Virus record (IMG/VR): IMGVR_UViG_3300027320_000001
Coordinates: 1-32,421 of that record
Reading direction: 5' to 3' (one strand)
DNA length: 32,421 bases
From: a virus
Both the position numbers and the translations under genes were made by a program. Of this stretch, positions 17,330 to 32,421 are shown in pieces (position 1 is the first letter of the stretch; each line of letters opens with the position of its first letter). Below the pieces are notes generated by a model. That model had not been told where the DNA came from. It was given only the letters and a program-made list of their open reading frames with translations, and did no database searches.

Positions 17330-17643
17330 GTAAAAAAGTCACACTAGATCCCTCTATAGCTACCCAGCTTGATATTAGCCCAGTGGGGCACAAAGAACGA
17401 GTACAAATTCTATTTACGGCCAGCGAAAATTGGACCGGTAGTTTTGATTTTGTGGTGTACAACAGCGCCGCAAAAAATACTTTTCTACAACCTTCAGGAT
17501 CCTTGAGCATTTTAGATAATGTGATGACCTTAATCATAGATCCTGTTGCGCAGGGAATTTCAATAGCGCCTAACTATTATGAAATCACTAGCACTAGTAC
17601 CAAGCGTATTTTATTTAAAGGACTTTTAAACATCGTAAAATGA
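17326..17643 (+). CDS. Hypothetical beta-rich structural protein
   Basis: 105 residues, soluble, beta-rich (ERVQILFTASENWTGSFDFVVYN, then NVMTLIIDPVAQGI, and RILFKGLLNIVK). The start overlaps the lipoprotein stop by four bases and the stop overlaps the collagen-like fibre start. A fold of alternating strands just ahead of a fibre suggests a fibre-base or baseplate-upper-like protein; this is positional inference, no motif recognised. Confidence 0.65.
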   Translation: MSKKVTLDPSIATQLDISPVGHKERVQILFTASENWTGSFDFVVYNSAAKNTFLQPSGSLSILDNVMTLIIDPVAQGISIAPNYYEITSTSTKRILFKGLLNIVK

Positions 17644-19103
17644 TAGTAGAAATCACTGTTCAGATGCTCCCGTATGATGTAGTTATTTCCTGTGATAATC
17701 CTGAGATAATTAACATTCAACCTATCGCACCTATAAATTTAGTAATAGATTTAAAAAAGGATGGTATTGATGGTCAGGCCGGTGCGCAAGGTATTCAGGG
17801 AATTAAGGGGGATAAAGGAGAAACAGGAGCAGCTGGTGCACAAGGTATACAAGGAATCAAAGGTGATACAGGAGCGAAAGGTGATACTGGTCCACAAGGA
17901 TTACAAGGAATCAAAGGCGATACAGGAGCGAAAGGTGATACTGGAGCCACTGGTGCGCAAGGTATTCAAGGAATCAAAGGGGATACAGGAGAAACAGGAG
18001 CAGCCGGTGCTCAAGGTATACAAGGAATACAAGGCGAGAAAGGCGATACTGGAGCTACTGGTGCGCAAGGCATACAAGGAATGAAGGGGGATACTGGATC
18101 TACAGGGCCAACCGGTGCAGCAGGTCCAAGTGTATGGGGAGTTATTACAGGAACATTATCGGAACAAACGGATTTAAACTCGGCTTTATCCGGAAAAGTG
18201 GATAAAACAGGAAACGAAACTATTGCAGGGATAAAAACATTTAGTGCAGCTCCTAAATTAACTGCTCCATACAATAGTATTCCAACAATAGTAGGTATTG
18301 GTTCTGATGGTTCTATATTTCCACTATATACAGGAATGTTTCCTAACCAAGATGAAATATCATATGTAAAAGGCGTTACAGGTGCTATACAAACACAATT
18401 TAGTGGAAAGCAACCAATTAATGCAAATTTAACTTCAATCTCTTCTTTAAGTACTGTTTCAGGTGCATCATTTGTGAGAGTATATAATGGTAGTTATTAT
18501 TTGGATGATGCATTATATTTAACATCTGTTGGAATATCTAATTTAACTGCAACAGGAACACCTTCAGCTACAAATTTTTTAAGAGGTGATAATACTTGGT
18601 CAATTCCAACAGCACCTTCGCAATCTGCATTTACTATTTTAGCTAATAATACAAATGTGACTGCTGTTCCAACAGAAAAAGTTTATAAAGAAGTAGCAGA
18701 ACAGTCTTTATCGGGTACTGGATTTTCAACAACAGGAGGAACGTTGCCAGGAGGAACGCAAACACATTATTATAGATGGTCTCAAATTGGAAACTTGGTA
18801 ACCGTTAGAATAAATCTAAATTTTACAACTAATGGTATTTGTACAGGTATTGCAATCCCTTTTGCTAATTTATCAGATATACCACAAACACCACAGCACC
18901 CATCTATTTATAATGCAGCTGGAGATATAATAACTTTTGGTTCAGGTAGTTTAGGTAATGGAAAGTTAGTACCTACATTTGCTACTGCTAATGGTACATC
19001 AGGTATAAGAAGAAATTTAGCACTTACAGGTTACGAATTTTTTGTTGGTAGAGCTTCTGCTTCATACAATAACGGATGGATACACGTACAATACTATATA
19101 TAA
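17640..19103 (+). CDS. Collagen-like second tail fibre
   Basis: 487 residues. Residues 1-41 form a short beta-rich base; residues 42-164 are 41 uninterrupted Gly-X-Y triplets built from units such as GAQGIQGIKGDTG, expected to form a collagen-type triple helix; then VDKTGNETIAGIKTFSAAP (a common fibre motif) and a C-terminal, AT-rich domain of about 300 residues with YYRWSQIGNLVTVRINLNF near its end, probably the receptor-binding tip. Placement after lysis genes is unusual for a main fibre and points to a separately acquired side fibre. Confidence 0.88.
   Translation: MIVEITVQMLPYDVVISCDNPEIINIQPIAPINLVIDLKKDGIDGQAGAQGIQGIKGDKGETGAAGAQGIQGIKGDTGAKGDTGPQGLQGIKGDTGAKGDTGATGAQGIQGIKGDTGETGAAGAQGIQGIQGEKGDTGATGAQGIQGMKGDTGSTGPTGAAGPSVWGVITGTLSEQTDLNSALSGKVDKTGNETIAGIKTFSAAPKLTAPYNSIPTIVGIGSDGSIFPLYTGMFPNQDEISYVKGVTGAIQTQFSGKQPINANLTSISSLSTVSGASFVRVYNGSYYLDDALYLTSVGISNLTATGTPSATNFLRGDNTWSIPTAPSQSAFTILANNTNVTAVPTEKVYKEVAEQSLSGTGFSTTGGTLPGGTQTHYYRWSQIGNLVTVRINLNFTTNGICTGIAIPFANLSDIPQTPQHPSIYNAAGDIITFGSGSLGNGKLVPTFATANGTSGIRRNLALTGYEFFVGRASASYNNGWIHVQYYI
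17763..18131 (+). repeat. In-gene DNA repeat encoding 41 Gly-X-Y triplets
   Basis: The collagen-like segment is coded by near-identical DNA blocks (for example GCAAGGTATTCAGGGAAT-like and GGTGATACAGGAGCGAAAGG repeated with few changes). Such in-phase repeats can expand or shrink by recombination without changing frame, altering fibre length. Confidence 0.85.
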
Positions 19104-24897: not shown

Positions 24898-25324
24898 TGT
24901 TGAATTTATATTTTCGACATTGACCTACAAGGTTAAAAAAGTAAAAGAGGTAAATGGTAAGGCTGTTATTGAAACCGATAGGCGTACATTTTGTTTTTTA
25001 CCAAGCGAATTAGGTGATTGGATGGCAAATATTAAGATCCTGGATGCAACTGACGTAAAAAAGAAAAAGAGGGAAGTTGTTCCGGCACCTGAAGTGAAAG
25101 TTTATACTAAAGAAGTGGTGAATGTGCCTACTGCTTTGCAAAATGAAATTATAAAGACGAATGAATTATCTCGAAGAATTACAGATAAACTAGAGGCTGT
25201 TTTTAATGAATTATCAGATGCTCCTGGTGAGGAAACTTATAAAAAAGCAGCTGCTATGGTGAATGCCTCCAATGCTATTATGAATATGCAAGTGGCTAAT
25301 TATAAATTTTTGACACTGAAATAA
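24869..25324 (+). CDS. Hypothetical replication-module protein
   Basis: 151 residues. N-terminal ~60 residues may form a small beta domain (FIFSTLTYKVKKVKEVNGKAVIETDRRTFCFL), then a basic linker (DVKKKKREVVPAPEV) and a helical C-terminal part (LSRRITDKLEAVFNELSDAPGEETYKKAAAMVNASNAIM). No family recognised. Lies directly before the initiator (stop overlaps its start), so a replication-associated or ssDNA-related role is possible. Confidence 0.65.
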   Translation: MQSILNQLVDVEFIFSTLTYKVKKVKEVNGKAVIETDRRTFCFLPSELGDWMANIKILDATDVKKKKREVVPAPEVKVYTKEVVNVPTALQNEIIKTNELSRRITDKLEAVFNELSDAPGEETYKKAAAMVNASNAIMNMQVANYKFLTLK

Positions 25325-25992
25325 TGGAACCAAACTACTATGCCATCATTCCGGCAAGCGTTCGATACGATAAACGATTGAAGCCAAATGCAAAATTATT
25401 GTATGGTGAAATCACAGCTTTATGCAATCAGGAAGGATTCTGTTGGGCCGATAACGCTTATTTTTCAAGACTGTATGAAGTAGATCATAAGACTATTTCG
25501 CGCTGGATTTCGCAGCTAGAAAATGGCGGTTATTTAAAAATACAACACTTTCCAGAAAATGGAAATACACGTAAAATTTTCATTGAAAATCTAGTGACAA
25601 AAAAGTCACTACCTAGTGACAAAAAAGTCACTACCCTAGTGACAAAAAAGTCACTACCTAGTGACAAAAAAGTCACTCCAATATATGAGAATATTACAAT
25701 TAATAATACAATGAATAGAGAAGGGAATTCGCTCGCTTTTTTTGAAGTTAATTTTCCTTCTGACTTTGACAGATTGATGATGCAATACAAATCAAAAATA
25801 AATGACTTTGTCAAGTTTTCGGAACTGTTTGAAGCAACTGTTTTGCAGGAAGGATTAGAATTTAAAAGAAATGTGATTGAGGGTCGCTTTGTGAAGTATG
25901 CCCGGAACTGGATTAGCAACCAAGGAAAGTATGATGTGCAGGTGATTGAATTGAATGCAAATATTCGAAAAGAAAAAATAAGCGGTATTTAA
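25324..25992 (+). CDS. Replication initiator (lambda O-like) with internal origin
   Basis: 222 residues. N-terminal ~80 residues are a winged helix-turn-helix (YYAIIPASVRYDKRLKPNAKLLYGEITALCNQEGFCWADNAYFSRLYEVDHKTISRWISQLENGGYL), the helix_turn_helix_36 type found in replication initiators. Residues ~90-119 are two copies of a 15-residue repeat (LVTKKSLPSDKKVTT) coded by four iterons. A C-terminal helical domain (FEATVLQEGLEFKRNVIEGRFVKYARNW) may contact the helicase encoded next door. Organisation equals phage lambda O: initiator containing its own origin, followed by the helicase side. Confidence 0.82.
   Translation: MEPNYYAIIPASVRYDKRLKPNAKLLYGEITALCNQEGFCWADNAYFSRLYEVDHKTISRWISQLENGGYLKIQHFPENGNTRKIFIENLVTKKSLPSDKKVTTLVTKKSLPSDKKVTPIYENITINNTMNREGNSLAFFEVNFPSDFDRLMMQYKSKINDFVKFSELFEATVLQEGLEFKRNVIEGRFVKYARNWISNQGKYDVQVIELNANIRKEKISGI
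25592..25677. other. Predicted replication origin: four palindromic iterons
   Basis: TAGTGACAAAAAAGTCACT occurs at 25592, 25614, 25637 and 25659 (spacing 22, 23, 22). Each has arms AGTGAC/GTCACT around A6. To the right (25678-25720) lies an AT-rich stretch (TATATGAGAATATTACAATT and onward) suitable for opening. The array is inside the initiator gene. Confidence 0.8.
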
Positions 25993-25993
25993 T

Positions 25994-27472
25994 ATGGAAA
26001 ATACAACGATAAAAGGATTTGATGCGCCACGGGCACTTGATATTGAGGAAGCAGTTATTGGCGCTATGATGATTGACAAAGTGGGTCTTGAAGAAGCTAT
26101 GGCTATCATATCTACTGATGAAGTATTCTACAAAGAAACACATCGGAATATTTTTGTTGCAATTCGGAATCTTTTCAATGCCGGAACCGGAATCGATTTG
26201 TTGACCGTTTCTGCCGAATTGCGAAAGCTGGGGGCCTTAGAACTTGCTGGTGGTGATTTTAATTTGATACAGCTCACGCAAAAGATTGCATCTTCTGCTC
26301 ACATCGAACACCATTGCCACATCCTGTTACAGAAGTTTATGGCGCGAAGAACGATACTATTTAGCAATCAAATCATTGCTTTGGCCTACAGTGAAACTAC
26401 TGACATTTTTGAACTGATGAACCGCTGGCAAAAGGAATTTGACAAAGTGATGGATTTTACTAATACTGGAAGGTCGACCATGTCGTTTCCTGATGCGTTA
26501 CAAAACTTGAAGTTAGAAGTGGAATTGCTTTCGAAAAATAAAGAGGAAGTGCAGCTGGTGGGAATCGATACAGGATTTAAAGGATTGAACAAATATACAG
26601 GTGGCTACCGCAATCAAGATCTAGTGATTGTTGCTGCACGTCCTGGGATGGGAAAAACTTCCTATGTATTGAAATGTGCTATTGAAAACTGTAAGAAAGA
26701 CGTGGGTGTGGGATTCATATCGCTTGAAATGTCTATCGAACAACTGACTGCTAGAGCTGTGGCTATTGATACAAACTTTCATTTAAAGCAATTGCTAAAG
26801 ACCGGTTTTGATAAATCGGAATACTTTAACACCTTTTCATCGCACCAGGAGCGAATGAATAATTATCCTTTGTTTATTGATGATAGCGGAAAAACGGATA
26901 TCAATGACATTGTAATCACGGCAAAATTATGGGTGCGAAAGTATGGCATCCAGCTGTTGATTATAGATTACATCCAGCTGATGACAGATCGTTCTATAAA
27001 AGGAAATCGAGAGGGGGAAATTTCTTCTATATCGCGTCGATTGAAACGATTAGCGAAGGAGTTGAACATCCCTGTGATTGCATTGTCACAACTATCGCGT
27101 GCCGTTGAAACTCGTGGTTCTAGTAAACGTCCTTTGCTATCCGATTTGCGTGATTCAGGAGCCATTGAGCAGGATGCCGATATTGTGCAATTCATATACC
27201 GTCCGGACTATTATAAAATGGAAATGGATACAAGTGACTACAGCGATAAGTTATGCGACCTAGTATCGAAAGGGGCTAACACTGAGATTATAATTGCTAA
27301 GTATCGAGGTGGTTCAACTAATACTGCATTGCTGCAATGGATCGGTGATAAGACTAAGTTCAAGGATGTTGATGATGATCATGACGTTGTGAATTATATC
27401 GATTCAGCTAATGAGTTTCCGAAGATAGGTGCATCTGAAGCATTTGAAATGAATGATGAAAATCCTTTTTAA
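25994..27472 (+). CDS. dnaB: Replicative DNA helicase, DnaB family
   Basis: 492 residues, full length. N-terminal domain ~14-120 (APRALDIEEAVIGAMMIDK), linker, and RecA-like C-domain with Walker A ARPGMGKTS (215-223), FISLEMS, Walker B LLIIDYIQLM, the H3/H4 segments (IPVIALSQLSRAVETR, PLLSDLRDSGAIEQDADIV) and IIAKYRGG arginine-finger region. Unwinds DNA at the fork opened by the initiator encoded just upstream. No dedicated loader gene is visible. The acidic end is typical. Confidence 0.95.
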   Translation: MENTTIKGFDAPRALDIEEAVIGAMMIDKVGLEEAMAIISTDEVFYKETHRNIFVAIRNLFNAGTGIDLLTVSAELRKLGALELAGGDFNLIQLTQKIASSAHIEHHCHILLQKFMARRTILFSNQIIALAYSETTDIFELMNRWQKEFDKVMDFTNTGRSTMSFPDALQNLKLEVELLSKNKEEVQLVGIDTGFKGLNKYTGGYRNQDLVIVAARPGMGKTSYVLKCAIENCKKDVGVGFISLEMSIEQLTARAVAIDTNFHLKQLLKTGFDKSEYFNTFSSHQERMNNYPLFIDDSGKTDINDIVITAKLWVRKYGIQLLIIDYIQLMTDRSIKGNREGEISSISRRLKRLAKELNIPVIALSQLSRAVETRGSSKRPLLSDLRDSGAIEQDADIVQFIYRPDYYKMEMDTSDYSDKLCDLVSKGANTEIIIAKYRGGSTNTALLQWIGDKTKFKDVDDDHDVVNYIDSANEFPKIGASEAFEMNDENPF

Positions 27473-29110: not shown

Positions 29111-30844
29111 ATGAAACTAACCCAGCAGCAAATCGATTCCATCCCTTTTCAATACGCAAATGACGTGCGTTCCGGAAAGATCATCACCGGAAAAAGAATC
29201 AAGCAAGCTGTCGAGCGTTTTTTCTCCTGGATTGATACAGCAGACCATGATGGATATCTACTAGACCATCATAAAGGGATGCAAATCATCAACTTTTATC
29301 CCACATTCTTAAACCATACCATCGGTAAACTAGCCGGAAAACCTTTTGTTCTAGCCCCATTCCAGCAATTTACCTTGTACAATGTTTTCGGCTGGATTAA
29401 AAAAGAAACCGGGTACCGCCGCATCAATACCGTTTACGACAAACGTGCTAAGAAAAACGGCAAAACCGCAGAAATGGCCGGTATGGCATTGTACTGTCTG
29501 TCCTTCGACCTTGAAATGGAAGCACAAGTTTTTGTAGGAGCCACTAAGGAGGAACAGGCGCGCATCTGTTGGAAACAGGCAAAAATGTACATCGAAAGTC
29601 CCGTTGCTAATCCTGCCCTTAGCAATATGGGATTCAACTGCTTGCAGAAAATAATAGGATTCAAAAAAACAGGAGCAACAATGATGCCACTAGGGGGCGA
29701 TTCAAAAACACAAGATGGGATCAATTGTCATTTAGGAATCATCGACGAATACCACGGCCACAAAGACGATTCGGTAAAAGAAAATCTCGAATCATCTACC
29801 GTACAGCGGGCCCAACCATTGATTTACCAAATCACCACTGCCGGGTCAAACGTGCAATCCGCCTGCAAGCACTACGAAGATTCCGTTATCGAAGTCCTCG
29901 AAGGCCGCAGCATCGACGACCACCTTTGGATCATGATACACGACATCGACCAGGAAGATTTAAACACGGAGGAATCCTGGGAAAACAAAGACTTATGGGT
30001 AAAAGCCAACCCGCTTTTGGGCAACGGATTAAGTTTAGAAGGTATCGAAAAAGAATACATCAAGGCCATCAACCAGCCTTCTAAAATTAGAAATTTCAAA
30101 ACAAAAAATTTAAACATGTGGGTCGATCAGCAATTCGACTGGATTCCTTCCGAAGTATGGAACAAAAATAAAGTAGCTACCATCCCGATGGAAAAATTTA
30201 CCAATTTCGGTGCTTATGCCGGACTAGATTTATCCACAACTACTGATTTAAGTGCCTATGCCATCCTATCTGAACCCGATGATTTTGGGGATCGCTACCT
30301 TAAAATTTGGCTTTTTTGCCCGAAAGACACCATCGAAAAACGCTCTAAAGAGGACCGTGTTCCCTATCAATATTGGGCTGATAAAGGCTATATTATTGCT
30401 ACACCGGGCAACGTGATTGACTATTTCGTCATTGCCGACATCATTAAATCGACCTTTCACAAACACAAAGTCATTCGTTTGGAATACGATCGCTACAATG
30501 CTACTCAATTAATCCAGGAGCTGCAAGAAAGTGGCTTGAACGTTTCCGAATTCTCGCAGGCCATCGGTACCATATCGGCACCCACAAAGGAATTCGAAAA
30601 ACTAGTCTATTCCGGCAAGGTAAAACATGACGGCAATCCCGCCTTGGCTTGGATGCTGGCTTCCTGCGTGATTTATGCTGATGCGAACGACAATCTAAAA
30701 GTACACAAAGGCCGTTCCGGTGCAAACGGTCGCCGTGTCGATGGGATCATCGCCACCATCAATGCCTTGGGTGGTTCCATGTCTACACCCGAAGAAACAA
30801 ACGAATCCTATTACAACCGCGACGATGCTCAATTCACCTGTTAA
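29111..30844 (+). CDS. terL: Terminase large subunit
   Basis: 577 residues, full length. ATPase: Walker A-like KRAKKNGKT (111-119, the K-N-G-K-T form of Terminase_1), Walker B LGIIDEYH (208-215), and ITTAGSN coupling motif (241-247). Nuclease domain begins near YAGLDLSTTTDLSAY with D373 as probable metal ligand; ...RLEYDRYNATQLIQEL and VDGIIATINALGG close the family pattern. Motor that fills the prohead and cuts DNA. Confidence 0.95.
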   Translation: MKLTQQQIDSIPFQYANDVRSGKIITGKRIKQAVERFFSWIDTADHDGYLLDHHKGMQIINFYPTFLNHTIGKLAGKPFVLAPFQQFTLYNVFGWIKKETGYRRINTVYDKRAKKNGKTAEMAGMALYCLSFDLEMEAQVFVGATKEEQARICWKQAKMYIESPVANPALSNMGFNCLQKIIGFKKTGATMMPLGGDSKTQDGINCHLGIIDEYHGHKDDSVKENLESSTVQRAQPLIYQITTAGSNVQSACKHYEDSVIEVLEGRSIDDHLWIMIHDIDQEDLNTEESWENKDLWVKANPLLGNGLSLEGIEKEYIKAINQPSKIRNFKTKNLNMWVDQQFDWIPSEVWNKNKVATIPMEKFTNFGAYAGLDLSTTTDLSAYAILSEPDDFGDRYLKIWLFCPKDTIEKRSKEDRVPYQYWADKGYIIATPGNVIDYFVIADIIKSTFHKHKVIRLEYDRYNATQLIQELQESGLNVSEFSQAIGTISAPTKEFEKLVYSGKVKHDGNPALAWMLASCVIYADANDNLKVHKGRSGANGRRVDGIIATINALGGSMSTPEETNESYYNRDDAQFTC

Positions 30845-32166: not shown

Positions 32167-32399
32167 AAATATTCCTGCAATCCTTCTTTCAAATTGGCTT
32201 AGTGGCTGTCAATACAATGCTCATCGCAAAAGGAATCCTGATGGGCGTGTTCATCGTTTCCTTCCTGATCTCGTTACTTTGGGCCTTTAATGTTTCTAAA
32301 GTAGCCATCTCAACAATCAAACAAAAAATAATTTATGCACTAGGTGCCGGATGTGGTGCCGTAATTGGATTACTTTTAATAACCTTAATTTTTAAGTAA
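32163..32399 (+). CDS. Small three-segment membrane protein before the portal
   Basis: 78 residues: hydrophobic segments at ~5-22 (QSFFQIGLVAVNTMLIAKG), ~24-43 (LMGVFIVSFLISLLWAFNV) and ~55-77 (IIYALGAGCGAVIGLLLITLIF), with basic residues between. Holin-like in topology but remote from the lysin candidate; could also be an exclusion or anchoring factor. Its last 34 codons are repeated at window position 1. Confidence 0.65.
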   Translation: MKIFLQSFFQIGLVAVNTMLIAKGILMGVFIVSFLISLLWAFNVSKVAISTIKQKIIYALGAGCGAVIGLLLITLIFK

Positions 32400-32421
32400 T
32401 ATTTATAAACCCAACACCTAA
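32295..32421. repeat. Right copy of the 127-bp terminal repeat
   Basis: Identical to 1-127, closing the circle; see the left copy. Confidence 0.9.

Follow-up and report, generated by a model that had tools for sequence, protein, structure and literature searches.

Palindromic iterons inside a phage gene for an HTH_36 replication initiator and their covariation with its recognition helix

Background

Origins of replication located inside the gene of their own initiator are so far known from few models. The lambda ori lies within the O gene (PMC7466680), and plasmid pSK41 carries four binding sites inside rep, in a dispensable linker region, which are its origin (PMC5703833). RepA_N replicons have semi-palindromic iterons that converge on poly-A (PMC7145576), and in pPR9 a PF13730 domain and its ori replace the pSK41 pair, giving a mini-replicon that replicates autonomously (reviewed in PMC5703833). 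Here we analyze a viral record of 32,421 nt (IMG/VR IMGVR_UViG_3300027320_000001; this whole stretch is the window), in which a replication initiator gene at 25324–25992 (+ strand, 222 aa) harbors an array of four near-identical dyads. Our reading, to which we give a probability of about 0.86, is that the phage replication origin has its initiator-binding sites in this array, which lies within the part of the gene that encodes a disordered linker. Origins of this kind are already known from lambda O and pSK41 Rep; the phage member described here is new.

Results and discussion

The iteron array

Four exact copies of TAGTGACAAAAAAGTCACT start at 25592, 25614, 25637 and 25659, that is, in steps of 22, 23 and 22. 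No further exact copy exists in the whole record, and elsewhere in it there is a single weak imperfect dyad, at 30415. The iteron unit is a 20-bp dyad, TAGTGAC-AAAAAA-GTCACTA, with 7-bp arms flanking an A6 tract. Symmetry is perfect in iterons 1 (25592–25611), 2 (25614–25633) and 3 (25637–25656), and 6/7 in iteron 4 (25659–25678). The original prediction, made from the sequence alone, had described every copy as palindromic; the coordinates, steps and codon phases it gave were all correct on re-reading of the sequence, and the correspondence of two iterons to 15 codons (45 nt), repeated twice in the protein as LVTKKSLPSDKKVTT / LVTKKSLPSDKKVTP, is indeed seen.

Since the two peptide units match at 14 of 15 residues and the linker sequence has low complexity, one could suppose that it is the duplicated 15-residue peptide that is selected, and that the dyads merely follow from Lys-rich codons or from repeat expansion. 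However, synonymous shuffling abolishes the dyads: the window gene has a dyad score of 27/28, against 12.5 ± 2.5 (maximum 23) in 20,000 peptide-preserving synonymous-codon shuffles. Likewise, 134 perfect 6-bp inverted repeats with a spacer of 6 were counted in the linker DNA of 143 related genes, six times the 22.2 ± 4.5 of synonymous shuffles, and the flanking coding sequence contains 7 on the N-terminal and 7 on the C-terminal side. The array dyads are thus not a by-product of coding. In addition, the array-encoded linker (residues 92–131) is predicted by AlphaFold2 (AF2) to be disordered, with a predicted local distance difference test score (pLDDT) below 50, and close relatives (loci L008 and L009) change letters and peptide while retaining dyad geometry and symmetry. 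In L009 the array reads TATTGAC-AAAAAA-GTCAATA, where both arms are altered symmetrically and the linker amino acids are changed too. Relatives that keep the peptide and lose the palindromes had been named beforehand as evidence against an origin, and the opposite was found. Selection on the peptide only was rejected on the basis of the shuffles, and we give it practically no chance of being correct.

Recognition helix and half-sites

Whether the dyads are bound by the encoded protein can be addressed by covariation. The set comprised 277 unique genes, in which arrays were called without the protein sequence and half-sites were compared with the aligned N-terminal domain. The most informative of the 73 domain columns are residues 60, 56, 59 and 57, all of which fall within the predicted recognition helix (HKTISRWISQLEN, codons 55–67, 25486–25524, + strand), a helix in the AF2 model. 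Covariation between R60 and base 7 has a z of 21: Arg60 with C at half-site position 7, and other residues with another base, account for 78 + 46 genes, whereas 10 disagree (124/134 in agreement). Glu56 occurs with TG at positions 4–5 in 25/25 genes (TTGAC), Val56 or Ile56 with TA in 32/34 (TTAA), and Lys56 pairs with GTGAC or GGGAC half-sites. When neighbors of >75% identity were removed, six helix residues predicted the half-site core at 3.84/5, compared with 2.99/5 for the rest of the domain, and the association of helix and half-site also appears in disjoint nearest pairs (Fisher p = 4e-6). When the helix was left out of tree building, joint changes of R60 and C7 on one branch numbered 14, against an expectation of 2.0; of four control columns only residue 20 gave an excess, and a smaller one. 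Rules written before the last two collections were fetched predicted the half-sites exactly in 16 of 20 held-out genes; since several of the 20 share their helix with genes already seen, this examines the rule itself more than its reach into distant lineages. The proposal that the iterons are initiator-binding sites is strongly supported by this covariation, and the array can be regarded, from comparative evidence, as the probable binding sites of the encoded initiator.

The same data bear on the possibility that the inverted repeats act as mRNA hairpins, in attenuation or translation control. Arms of 7 bp and a loop of 6 nt could make RNA stems, but there is no enrichment of G.U-type pairs, with 34 of this type versus 105 of the A.C type among 397 non-Watson–Crick core pairs, and it is a DNA-recognition helix with which the half-sites covary. 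Hairpins were disfavored on both the wobble statistics and the protein covariation, and we hold them to be highly improbable.

Changes of helix and array can be followed among relatives. L007 and L008 are 93% identical in DNA and differ mostly in DNA-binding-domain codons and in the array, half-sites being mainly GTGAC where the helix motif is DHKTISRW and TTGAC where it is DRITISRW. L013 (2974–3651) combines a divergent HTH_36-like N-domain and a related C-terminal part with a wholly different array, CCAATCATTGG (TTCCAATCATTGGAA-like), in 15–16-bp steps; this looks as if reader and target had been exchanged as a module, a pattern reported for pPR9 (PMC5703833). The initiator arrays of L005 and L006 have mixed half-sites, with TATTGA and TATAGAC arms within one dyad, and may be intermediates in a specificity shift. 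Initiators with a QRWF helix (L171, 2501–3154, and L054) carry tandem repeats, e.g. CCCTATACCCAAAAATGAGACA, rather than clear dyads, and their mode of binding may differ from that of other family members. When an Enterococcus family member was used as the search seed, mostly near-identical copies were returned.

Because each open reading frame holds both the reader (helix) and its target (iterons), genomic and metagenomic sequences can supply matched pairs in large numbers. We consider it fairly probable that HTH_36 initiators constitute a natural, readable protein–DNA recognition code. In this view a new replication specificity arises when helix and array change in concert inside a single gene, and the demands of coding allow the array few geometries: alternating steps of 22 and 23, steps of 24 nt, or the sacrifice of an arm in the stop-phase copy. 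A limited literature search turned up no previous description of a recognition code for HTH_36 proteins or of stop-avoiding arrays.

Stop codons, phase and spacing

Relative to the gene start at 25324 the iterons lie at offsets 268, 290, 313 and 335, corresponding to phases 1, 2, 1 and 2; copies 1 and 3 read CTA GTG ACA, and copies 2 and 4 read CCT AGT GAC. With a constant step of 22, copy 3 would start at offset 312 in phase 0 and read TAG TGA. The single extra C that had been noted before iteron 3 is present and avoids this phase. The sites double as codons, and because one frame of TAGTGAC contains stops, only phases 1 and 2 are open to the array, giving 22-23-22 here. That the frame sets the spacing, as first suggested, is correct for the window but incomplete for the family, which holds a distance of ~22–24 bp, of which the frame forbids only one phase and to which there are at least three solutions. 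Neighboring dyads are separated by 22, 23 and 24 bp in 102, 69 and 74 of 316 steps, respectively. The 22/23 alternation is found in the window, L007–L009, L011 and L015, 24-nt steps in many Firmicutes, and a constant 22 with one arm sacrificed in L012, L024, L025 and L027.

Dyads prone to stops (a stop triplet in phase 0) are in phases 1 or 2 in 201/217 copies, and all 16 copies in phase 0 depart from the left-arm consensus such that the stop is absent (e.g. TGT, TGC, TCA, CCA), while the right-arm core is still perfect in 10 of them. Stop-free dyads (TATGGAA, TATTGCG and others) are in phase 0 in 25/109 copies, and in a larger set the left-arm core of phase-0 copies is perfect in 23/35 stop-free versus 0/16 stop-prone dyads (p = 6e-6). 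The impossibility of a true stop is trivial; what is informative is that a copy is kept with one arm altered, or that the step is shifted.

The initiator and its relation to known systems

The protein matches HTH_36 (PF13730; E 2.7e-10) at 40.3 bits, above the curated cutoff of 25, as well as the replication-initiation PHROGs phrog_19658 (E 1.1e-29), phrog_270 and phrog_428, and its phage homologues in GenBank are annotated as replication initiation proteins. HTH_36 is the only Pfam match of the initiator to pass its cutoff, with PF06970 (RepA_N) not among them, and a direct PDB sequence search gave nothing relevant. The AF2 model consists of a winged-helix DNA-binding domain (codons 1–92, 25324–25599, + strand; pLDDT 88.9), the disordered linker and a helical C-terminal domain (codons 132–203, 25717–25932, + strand; helices 136–199). 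The best structural matches of the N-domain, although weak, are the N-domains of RepA_N initiators (5kbj, 4pt7 and 4pql, including a Rep–DNA complex), with modest scores (template modelling score ~0.67–0.69 by query length, E 0.008–0.018). C-terminal regions vary across the family, some being Phg_2220_C and others without a Pfam domain; in the phage initiator, the helicase or primosome is the proposed target of this domain.

The locus resembles RepA_N systems (pSK41, pTZ2162 RepA) in having its sites in the linker part of the initiator gene and in palindromic repeats centered on an A-tract. By sequence it belongs to a separate Pfam family, and the fold match of its N-domain to RepA_N initiators, although the best one, is modest (E ~0.01). 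The hybrid Rep of pPR9 has the same PF13730 DNA-binding domain, and its domain and origin differ from those of pSK41 as one ~500-bp block (PMC5703833); pPR9 is, however, a staphylococcal plasmid, and the C-terminal domain of its Rep comes from pSK41 Rep, unlike that of the phage initiator. With lambda the likeness is one of layout, an origin within the initiator gene with tandem iterons, which in lambda lie in steps of 20, 24 and 23; lambda dyads have an odd-length spacer and those here a spacer of 6 nt. The analogy to lambda O drawn initially holds to this extent, but profile comparison with hhalign detected no homology between the N-domain family and lambda O; against the O-like PHROG 678 the window protein gave 1.2e-7 (hmmscan).

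AT-rich element and function of the array

The last iteron is followed by an AT-rich element, CAATATATGAGAATATTACAATTAATAATACAATGAATA (25679–25717, + strand), which encodes IYENITINNT... Family-wide, G+C content just past the last dyad drops to 0.15–0.17 over 30 nt, compared with roughly 0.3–0.45 in surrounding bins, and AATANTACA starts 2 nt past the last dyad in 91/157 genes. In this stretch Asn is encoded by AAT in 763/773 codons (66% elsewhere) and Thr by ACA in 76% (30% elsewhere), and the stretch persists even in genes of 59–68% G+C. The drop in G+C, the codon bias and the persistence in high-G+C genes point to a signal at the DNA level, and judging from composition the element is likely the origin unwinding element, consistent with the earlier view of the AT-rich flank as an unwinding zone.

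We infer that the origin functions through dimer binding, unwinding, helicase loading and firing. At every dyad, a dimer of the HTH_36 N-domain would span the central A-tract and place a recognition helix in each of the two arms, with Arg60 near the inner C of the half-site and residue 56 near bases 4–5. Occupation of all four dyads, at intervals of roughly two helical turns, might strain the adjacent AT-rich stretch and promote its opening, and the C-terminal domain could then direct the neighboring DnaB-like helicase onto the opened DNA.

Covariation argues for recognition but is silent on the purpose of binding. The dyads could also be autoregulatory operators that block or time transcription of the initiator–helicase operon, with the origin elsewhere, and plasmid initiators such as RepE of F do also autoregulate. 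Still, the sites are ~270 bp into the gene and away from the promoter, a conserved AT-rich element at a fixed distance fits an origin, and the rep-internal sites of pSK41 serve as origin (PMC5703833), so that we consider autoregulation as the sole function unlikely. In plasmids, iterons also mediate copy control, and an incompatibility or centromere-like partition site rather than a start site may be envisaged. This seems very unlikely, as the annotation of the gene family is replication initiation, the gene adjoins DnaB, the AT-rich element follows the array, and no partition gene was identified, although there are small open reading frames of unknown function nearby.

Several observations weigh against a replication origin at the array. 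No dyad was called in 27 of 264 long-enough genes, and some relatives (L171) carry arrays that are not clearly dyadic. About half of the testable loci have no match to DnaB or a loader shortly downstream of the initiator; in favor of an origin, DnaB adjoins it in the window and in 37 of the 87 family loci with enough downstream DNA. The detrended genome GC skew, which had been suggested as a check, peaks near 28.3 kb and not sharply at the array; with most genes on one strand, it was of no help in locating the origin.

Genome context

A 127-bp direct terminal repeat is present at 1–127 and 32295–32421. On this ground the record probably represents the whole of a circular phage genome of ~32.3 kb, its ends overlapping as written. 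Profile matches identify terminase, portal, tape measure, integrase and DnaB, and the initiator gene is directly upstream of the gene for the DnaB-like replicative helicase (25994–27472, + strand; PF03796, E 1.2e-82). The nearest cellular relatives are in Flavobacterium and related genera, in agreement with the host that had been guessed. A collagen-like protein of G-x-y repeats (GIQGIKGDTGAKGDTG...) is encoded at 17640–19103, after the tail genes.

Concluding remarks

In each copy of the array one can see how a signal in the DNA and the reading frame are accommodated in the same bases, and the readable code and the ways around the stop phase are points for specialist follow-up. With reader and target in one gene, and hundreds of relatives in several bacterial phyla, a specificity code of winged-helix initiators becomes directly testable, and the origins of uncultured phages become predictable from sequence.
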